A DNA stretch of 64,000 nucleotides. Source: an uncultured Clostridia bacterium (lineage in GTDB: Bacteria; Bacillota; Clostridia; Oscillospirales; Oscillospiraceae). The notes under the pieces are model-generated. The model saw nothing but the letters and a program-made list of their open reading frames with translations. It did no database searches and was not told the origin of the DNA. The position numbers and the translations under genes were made by a program. The stretch spans positions 1-64,000 of the forward strand of contig CAMCNO010000003.1 in NCBI GenBank assembly GCA_945876285.1. Direction: 5' to 3'. Every line of letters starts with the position of its first letter. The first letter of the stretch is position 1. This document shows positions 30,481 to 31,750 of the stretch, one piece after another.

Positions 30481-31506
30481 ATGCCTATGGCTAAGGATAT
30501 TGGTATCGATTTGGGAACCGCATCGGTTCTGGTTTACGTGAAGGGTAAGGGGATCGTACTGAACGAGCCCTCTGTGGTGGCGCTGGATAAGAACACCGGC
30601 AAGCTGCTGAAGGTGGGCGCCGAGGCGCAGGCCATGCTGGGCCGTACCCCCGGCAACATTGTGGCTATCCGTCCCCTGCGGGAGGGCGTCATCTCCGACT
30701 ACGACATGACGGAGCGGATGCTGAAGGAATTCATTCATAAGGTGGCCGGGTTCTCCTTCTTCAAGCCCCGGGTCATCATCTGCGTACCCTCCGGCATCAC
30801 CGAGGTCGAGGAGCGTGCCGTCATCGACGCGGGCATCCAGGCCGGTGCCCGGAAGGTGTTCCTGATCGAGGAACCCGTGGCAGCCGCCATCGGCGCCGGC
30901 ATTGACATTGCCAAGCCCGACGGCCACATGGTGGTGGATATCGGCGGCGGTACCGCTGACATCGCCGTCATCTCCCTTTCTGGCGTGGTGGAGAGCGCCT
31001 CCATCAAGATCGCCGGCGACCAGCTCAACGAGGCTGTGGTGAAGTATATGCGCCGCACCCACAACCTGCTGGTGGGCGAGCGCACCGCCGAGGAGATGAA
31101 GAAACAGATCGGCTGCGTGTTCCCCAAGGACGAGGAGGAGACCATGGACGTGAAGGGCCGCTGCCTGCTCACCGGCCTGCCCAAGGTCGTCACCGTCAGC
31201 TCCACTGAAATGATGGACGCCTTCGAGGAGCCTGTGGAGCGCATCATGGAGGCCATCCACTCCGTGCTGGAGCGGACGCCCCCCGAACTGGTGGCGGATA
31301 TCTCCACCAACGGCATCGTGATGACCGGCGGCGGCAGCCTGGTATCCGGCTTTGACAAGCTGGTCTCCGCCCGCACCGGTATCCACACCGTCATTGCGGA
31401 TGATGCGATTTCCTGCGTCGCTCTGGGCACCGGCAAGAGCCTGGACTCCCTGAACAACATGCAGGATGGCACCATGAACCTTTCCCGGCGGAAGCAGATG
31501 AACTAA
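30481..31506 (+). CDS. mreB: rod-shape-determining protein of the MreB/Mbl family
   Basis: A 341-residue bacterial actin that organises cell-wall elongation under the membrane. The phosphate-1 motif IGIDLGTASVLVYVKGKGI, the connect and phosphate-2 motif VVDIGGGTADIAV and the adenosine motif MTGGGSLVSGFD are intact. The gene stands alone, without mreC-mreD, which fits the Mbl or MreBH type paralogues found outside the mre operon. The exact paralogue cannot be told from sequence alone. GAGGTGG precedes the ATG at 30481; a second ATG 6 nt later is possible. Confidence 0.9.
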   Translation: MPMAKDIGIDLGTASVLVYVKGKGIVLNEPSVVALDKNTGKLLKVGAEAQAMLGRTPGNIVAIRPLREGVISDYDMTERMLKEFIHKVAGFSFFKPRVIICVPSGITEVEERAVIDAGIQAGARKVFLIEEPVAAAIGAGIDIAKPDGHMVVDIGGGTADIAVISLSGVVESASIKIAGDQLNEAVVKYMRRTHNLLVGERTAEEMKKQIGCVFPKDEEETMDVKGRCLLTGLPKVVTVSSTEMMDAFEEPVERIMEAIHSVLERTPPELVADISTNGIVMTGGGSLVSGFDKLVSARTGIHTVIADDAISCVALGTGKSLDSLNNMQDGTMNLSRRKQMN

Positions 31507-31508
31507 TT

Positions 31509-31739
31509 CCAGAGGGGACTGTGTCTCCCCCTGGACGAAAACGAATAAAGAAAACGGAGTCTTTTGGCTCCGTTTTCTTTTTCCGTTTGCTGCCCCCCAC
31601 CACCAGTGACGTCGGTCACTGGTGTGTTTGCCCCAAGGGCAAACAGGTCGGGGTATTTTCGCCACACACATGTCGCGGCGAAAATGATTTCATTTTATTC
31701 ATTCGCCAGCGGCGAAAGAACCGGGGAACCTTGGTTCCC
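31509..31739 (+). repeat. intergenic hairpin array A
   Basis: A series of hairpins directly after the mreB-like stop codon: a GGGGA..TCCCC hairpin (31509-31534), the terminator (31547-31584), CACCAGTGAC/GTCACTGGTG (31601-31624), GTTTGCCC/GGGCAAAC (31626-31644), ATTTTCGCC/GGCGAAAAT with ACATGT in its loop (31655-31685), TTCGCC-AGC-GGCGAA (31702-31716) and GGGAACC/GGTTCCC (31724-31739). The same order, apart from the terminator and the last hairpin, recurs in array B (46140-46287, minus strand). Confidence 0.75.
31547..31584. terminator. terminator of the MreB/Mbl gene
   Basis: AAAGAAAACGGAG (31547-31559) pairs with CTCCGTTTTCTTT (31568-31580), followed by TTCC. It sits inside hairpin array A. 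Confidence 0.75.
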
Positions 31740-31750
31740 TGGACCTTCCT

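Follow-up and report, generated by a model that had tools for sequence, protein, structure and literature searches.

REP and BIME repeats are palindromic intergenic sequences located at gene ends and linked to the REP-associated tyrosine transposase (RAYT); they are recognised as palindromes of 20-40 bp in alternating orientation and by a RAYT gene flanked by the repeats. Two other repeats are composed or positioned in a way that is relevant here. According to the excerpts of its description considered here, YPAL/RU-2 of Yersinia is an intergenic element of about 168 bp, not A+T-rich, with internal inverted repeats, target duplications of variable length (3-26 bp) at targets that span or adjoin a dyad symmetry, and a possible influence on upstream transcripts (PMC2229807). 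In the excerpts dealing with BOX of Streptococcus, this repeat is a composite of ordered modules near gene ends, over-represented between convergent genes, with an optional module that barely disturbs the fold of the remainder and ends that resemble an IS (PMC3049150); its nesting with other repeats is also described (PMC10969869). Among open-licence PMC papers, we found no description of the Oscillospirales repeats presented below.

The window, i.e. the whole stretch of 64,000 nucleotides of an uncultured Clostridia bacterium analysed here, carries two intergenic arrays of hairpins, A and B, in which a first-pass annotation had recognised the same ordered series. All the parts that it named were found in place, both arrays beginning at the 3' end of a gene (Table 1), and its hairpin list is to be completed for array A by a long palindrome between H0 and H1, absent from array B, and by a last hairpin, H5. 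The long palindrome matches an intrinsic terminator on both strands (31547-31580). As announced, the second of the listed hairpins (H1) differs by one loop base between the two copies (GTCG/ATCG), and the “short GC stem” (H2) is present in both, although that of array A is not wholly composed of G+C (GTTTGCCC/GGGCAAAC). Array A is flanked by mreB and, in convergent orientation, a maltose-acetyltransferase-type gene; array B separates an ANTAR-domain gene from a glutamate synthase gene on the same strand. The double occurrence of the H0 and H1 motifs is more than chance: the H1 pattern with up to 3 mismatches gave 4 matches, two sites counted on both strands, where 0.15 were expected, and the H0 pattern with up to 2 mismatches gave 2 matches against 0.08 expected, a number reached in 1 of 100 shuffles. 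The folding z-scores of the two arrays are -8.6 and -8.1, with none of 200 shuffles equally stable.

Table 1 Parts of the two hairpin arrays, with their coordinates in the window
Part	Array	Coordinates	Strand	Description
H0	A	31509-31534	+	GAGGGGACTG hairpin; begins 2 nt past the mreB stop (31504-31506)
Long palindrome	A	31539-31588	.	Between H0 and H1; the G028 and G029 orthologues have it in this position too
H1	A	31601-31624	+	CACCAGTGAC stem
H2	A	31626-31644	+	Short variable stem; slot that is home to palindrome E2 in other copies
H3	A	31655-31685	+	Stem with CACATGT loop; slot that is home to palindrome E3 in other copies; wider-family core
H4	A	31702-31716	+	TTCGCC/GGCGAA
H5	A	31721-31742	+	CCGGGGAACC/GGTTCCCTGG; present in some copies only
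H0	B	46287-46261	-	Stem includes the TAA stop of the ANTAR gene (TAAAGAGGGG..CCCCCCTTTA)
H1	B	46251-46228	-	H1 stem
H2	B	46224-46210	-	Short stem
H3	B	46198-46168	-	CACATGT loop
H4	B	46155-46141	-	TTCGCC/GGCGAA

Both arrays belong to a composite family of repeats located at the 3' ends of genes. A covariance model built from nine own-genome copies of H1-H2-H3 (model R1) retrieved 13 copies in the genome to which the window belongs, all at E <= 1.4e-6, the weakest being a short copy. At E <= 0.01, it matched 26 of 37 genomes of the same genus, own genome counted, and a single one of 23 genomes from elsewhere in the order. The 26 genus genomes total at least about 320 matches, weak palindrome echoes counted; copy numbers per genome are lower bounds, at most 70 candidates per genome having been scored with R1 and at most 17 with the model R2 described below, and part of the weak matches are reverse-strand echoes. 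The E-values of all the models built here are rough. The search of this genome and its relatives suggested by the first-pass annotation has therefore yielded many more than the two initial copies, and both a shared hairpin order and covariation were found at other loci. The exact H1 pattern occurs in at least 116 stretches, most of them in assemblies that carry the name Oscillibacter, Dysosmobacter, Oscillospiraceae or Clostridia, with matches also in Xanthomonas, Limnochordaceae and Alcanivoracaceae; the Xanthomonas locus was discarded as a family copy, its R1 score being only 25 bits. No exact H1-pattern match was found in viral contigs, and carriage by phages was rejected. Rfam gave no match at gathering score in the window or in 18 sister-genus loci, the best sub-threshold one (E = 0.00084), which relates the terminator palindrome to a microRNA family, being taken as chance.

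The family extends beyond the genus through part of its hairpins. Weak R1 matches in a genome of another family (G042) shared H3, the following spacer and H4 with the window's genus, and a model of this core (R2), combining 10 sequences of the window's genus and 8 of G042, matched 22 of 295 genomes of the order, distributed among 13 genera and 4 families. A third model, R3, was built from 38 copies, none from the window's genus, but is not wholly blind since they were selected with R2, which included the window's lineage. Of 14 own-genome copies, it recovered 13 at E <= 0.01, those of the window at 1.1e-9 and 1.2e-8; in a further 20 stretches of the own genome, 400 kb in total, nothing did better than E = 0.64. 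The last two hairpins common to the window arrays (H3 and H4) are thus part of a wider Oscillospirales family. The 5' half of the element differs in the sister genera, where a CAGCCCGC/GCGGGCTG stem around GCA..ACAC is followed by GAG, H3, a T-rich spacer, H4 and CTCTGC; in the branch of the window, hereafter Oscillibacter-type, H0-H1-H2 stands in place of this different half. One sister-type copy (L026) is present in the own genome, between nrdD and nrdG as read from their translated ends. The 38 foreign copies have a covariation score of 0.474, compared with 0.183 when shuffled and at most 0.161 when slid, with 97.5% of cells forming pairs against 80.3% in shuffles and 124 double changes against 42.6. 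Further pair types are not in excess in these copies (20 versus 22.2 in shuffles). In a longer alignment, double changes affect 14 of 25 predicted pairs.

The position of the element relative to genes was analysed on 91 Oscillibacter-type copies, 10 from the own genome and 81 from named loci; the latter were chosen by the exact H1 pattern from the first 80 of at least 116 loci and include orthologous sites, so that they are not independent. Neighbour genes, here and in the sister genera, were called with our own codon-usage script. The upstream gene could be resolved for 81 copies and is on the strand of the element in all of them, one (L079) being 3 kb off with a gene call over the element. 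When both neighbours were resolved (73 copies), 70 elements lie between two genes of their own strand and three, including array A, do not; for comparison, 231 of 310 adjacent gene pairs in these named loci share a strand, element-bearing pairs counted. The core starts 26-39 nt past the stop codon in 56 of 81 copies, the gap being occupied by H0, and in 27 of the 91 copies H0 is of a TAAAG type whose first pair can be formed by the TAA stop, as in array B. Among 66 resolved sister-genus copies, also at gene 3' ends, 34 are between convergent genes, 18 are on the strand of both neighbours, 13 oppose both and 1 lies between divergent genes. The 13 opposed copies indicate that transcription of the element strand is not general.

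Orthologous sites are irregularly filled. The site behind the ANTAR gene contains the element in 5 of 29 loci (G000, G029, G007, G028, G013) and that behind mreB in 3 of 30 (G000, G028, G029), one locus having only 94 nt of flank; G007 is filled at one of these two sites and empty at the other. Each of the three filled mreB sites has a long palindrome between H0 and H1, and many of the remaining mreB loci show one terminator-like hairpin after the stop. A sister-type site whose element has a flanking duplication (L332) is filled in 1 of 30 orthologous loci, with a single hairpin after the stop in many of the empty ones. L382, considered as a second filled locus of this site, was discarded: its motif lies over 100 nt past a plain terminator, in what appears to be coding sequence. 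The occupation of orthologous sites in several species shows that many copies are old. At the orthologue of the array B site in G070 (L207), a lone H0-like hairpin follows the stop in place of the whole array.

The flanks of the sister-type copies retain probable traces of insertion. Upstream and downstream flanks align with a score of 15 or more in 19 of 73 copies, against 6 of 1228 control pairings of flanks from different genomes; an earlier control that included same-genome pairings had a maximum of 23 in 289, a value exceeded by 14 of the 73 copies. The duplicated stretches are locus-specific, 16 of the 19 fold mostly as a hairpin and 17 of the 19 measure 22-42 bp. Six genomes of family f1 account for 18 of the flanked copies and family f13 for the remaining one, and none of the 25 copies of family f7 has a flanking duplication; L417 is an additional clear case. 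Among Oscillibacter-type copies (87), one clear duplication was found, of 34 bp of gene end (L068), together with a tandem copy (L069), and neither array A nor array B has any. In another locus (L122:3770-4226), the final ~50 bp of a gene is present three times in tandem, with a ~150 bp spacer before the element, which looks like a separate tandem duplication.

Bounded by these flanks, the sister-genus elements (18, one of them weak) are 183-274 bp long. Some have similar inverted ends, of a AGNNTGTCGAAAAA type, and among the 19 flanked copies AGNNTGTCGA-type end motifs are present at the 5' end in 17, inverted at the 3' end in 12, and at both ends in 12, compared with 30 of 1205 random windows for each end (~2.5% per window). 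The family therefore has the short, non-coding and multi-copy nature of a MITE, as regards both these sister-genus copies and the 13 own-genome ones; candidates for the terminal inverted repeats expected of a MITE were seen outside the window copies only, in the 12 flanked copies with both end motifs, and the direct repeats around the 19 sister-type copies and the single clear Oscillibacter-type case are putative target-site duplications, the two arrays of the window being devoid of them. Based on the many copies, the hairpin order, the orientation in this branch, the shared core, the sister-genus duplications and the presence/absence pattern, we consider it likely that the arrays represent a MITE-like element of Oscillospirales, mobile but non-autonomous, whose insertion sites are the 3' ends of genes and which, in the Oscillibacter-type branch, probably forms a transcribed mRNA tail or intercistronic region.

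The copies also differ by exchange of parts. The third and fourth hairpins had been noted to keep their shape and not their sequence, with selection for structure or recombination of modules as possible reasons, and evidence of both paired, structure-keeping changes and module recombination was found. H0 exists in several types, in which the stem and the following unpaired letters vary together, and the copies behind one gene (argG, as read from its end) differ in their H0 and H3 types among five genomes, which is better explained by replacement of modules than by point changes. An alternative 5' module, of a CTCGAAACAGCC..GGCTGTTTC type with an inner hairpin, replaces H0 in L066, L070, L080, L094, L108, L131 and L062. 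Smaller palindromes are nested in fixed slots, E3 occupying the H3 loop in 8 and E2 the H2 loop in 4 of the 91 copies; at the array B locus of G029, E2 is present both between H0 and H1 and in H2, and a reversed E3 in H3, all three being absent from the window copy. An E2-like sequence was also observed inside an unrelated TTCACAAAC/GTTTGTGAA palindrome (L132:2962), as if E2 favoured hairpin loops. Three tandem pairs (L065, L069, L085) are joined inside the H3 loop, the first copy stopping at CATGTCC.

Across 464 kb of own-genome sequence, the patterns of H1, H3, E3 and E4 match only the two arrays of the window, and loose H0 and E2 patterns have 21 and 3 matches, respectively; free-standing H0 or E2 modules were not retained, the matches outside the arrays resembling coding sequence or ordinary terminators. 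Over 588 kb of named loci, a set picked by H1 and hence biased for such counts, modules lie within 250 bp of H1 in 62 of 64 cases for H0, 15 of 15 for H5, 5 of 5 for E4, 8 of 10 for E2 and 9 of 13 for E3. The different module types at one orthologous site and the tandem copies joined inside H3 would also be expected from a mosaic produced by ordinary recombination or gene conversion of old repeats, with no active transposition. We nevertheless hold this to be quite improbable, locus-specific hairpins being duplicated at the element ends and an insertion step being required for the spread to new sites.

The first-pass annotation had described a composite REP/BIME-like family, of which the composite repeat family at gene ends is confirmed and the REP/BIME membership is not. 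Like REP/BIME, the element is a palindromic, intergenic and multi-copy repeat at gene ends, and 7 of 37 genus genomes have matches to RAYT-type genes, the copy-rich G013 and G018 among them, as would suit a REP/BIME element moved by RAYT. However, no RAYT match was found in G007, G024, G025 and G029, the genomes with the most element matches (29-39), six Y1/RAYT loci of 3.2-3.3 kb each contain no R1 match, and the units are made of several unlike hairpins, placed behind genes in a single orientation in the Oscillibacter-type branch instead of alternating. RAYT was consequently discarded as the mobiliser, and we regard this origin as very improbable. In L182, L184 and L185 (G015, G016, G018), a RAYT-like gene lies in the same gap, which on reading is bounded on one side by, or close to, the end of a parE-type gene and on the other by the start of a parC-type gene, with no family repeats nearby.

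Other transposases were also considered. The IS1634-type family is characterised by long target duplications, and its transposases were matched in 5 of 21 genomes; they were rejected as mobilisers, the ends at three inspected loci not matching those of the element. No pairs of element ends 0.7-3.5 kb apart occur in the loci searched, and a search of six genomes for the end pattern led to copies of the element and to some sites unrelated to it, with no recognised transposon. A parental transposase with the same ends was therefore not found within this one transposase family, these six genomes and these loci. IS200-type Y1 transposases are present in the own genome and in others, including an intact-looking gene with an open frame of 144 aa (G000:C6:77387-77746), and may be candidate mobilisers.

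The suggestion that the arrays are a structured RNA tail has arguments on both sides. The unpaired motifs GCA, ACAC, GAG and CTCTGC are conserved, and the H3 apex occurs as two linked variants, GC-GU being swapped for GU-GC, with a single G.U on the element strand in either case. This single G.U is found in 33 of 33 sister-type copies (alignment A6) and in 77 of 77 scorable Oscillibacter-type copies, a constancy that favours pairing on the element strand. On the other hand, the other Oscillibacter-type stems do not display G.U in excess of A.C, with 36 versus 67 in all (H0 7/22, H3 4/19, H4 9/11, H5 15/14, H2 1/1 and H1 0/0), a tally driven by two fixed A.C haplotypes; in the foreign core the ratio is 20/6, driven by one apical pair. 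Depending on so few haplotypes or on one pair, these tallies give no firm verdict on selection at the RNA level. Together with the covarying stems and the single orientation and position behind stop codons, the conserved motifs and the H3 apex would fit a selected cis-acting RNA between operon genes, such as a processing site, an mRNA stabiliser or an attenuator, whose mobility is long past. We find this unlikely, considering that no common gene class was noticed, that presence is patchy among close relatives, that G.U does not exceed A.C in the Oscillibacter-type stems, that the flanking duplications indicate insertion and that some sister copies oppose both neighbours.

Retaining a mobile element as the preferred reading, we propose a mode of insertion as part of it. 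A trans-acting enzyme would cut both strands at either foot of the terminator hairpin, or near the stop codon, the element would be joined in between the cuts, and gap filling would duplicate the hairpin. With the duplicated hairpin, termination would still be possible downstream and the element would be an untranslated tail. In the Oscillibacter-type branch, where the element is probably transcribed as an mRNA tail or intercistronic region, the smaller palindromes E2 and E3 would have entered the hairpin loops. In a bolder version, to which we give somewhat less than an even chance, the element would recognise intrinsic terminators as hairpins, in the form of extruded DNA or by way of the nascent transcript, insert at their foot and copy the whole hairpin to its far side, thereby becoming a structured 3' tail with termination restored behind it; the Oscillibacter-type branch would have moved to stop codons between operon genes and would have become a target for smaller palindromes in its turn. 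In the preferred reading, the effect on the host would most likely be passive, stable intergenic hairpins altering mRNA decay or read-through.

Among described elements, YPAL/RU-2 is the nearest that we found, an analogy drawn from the excerpts of its description: the intergenic position and a composition that is not A+T-rich are shared, the size is similar, the target duplications are variable and located at dyad symmetry, and upstream transcripts may be influenced. It belongs to another phylum and is described as having internal inverted repeats. The Oscillospirales element mostly duplicates a whole terminator-like hairpin, within the size range given above for 17 of 19 copies, and is built around two conserved hairpins, with a loop that is conserved as well and with nested palindromes, features that differ from YPAL/RU-2 as these excerpts present it. 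The likeness to BOX, also judged by description in the excerpts considered, concerns the modular build, the optional module, the gene-end positions and the nesting; in contrast to BOX, the Oscillibacter-type branch lies between same-strand genes and has no known IS partner.

This family, which has no Rfam entry, is located at gene ends, where mRNA tails can be altered. With its hairpins exchanged and nested at fixed slots, it offers a natural experiment on how palindromes move. Terminators are sites where an insertion can be nearly harmless, and the duplication of the terminator, if true, would explain how the element is common yet tolerated. A structure-guided, hairpin-duplicating insertion of this kind is directly testable in cultured Oscillospiraceae.
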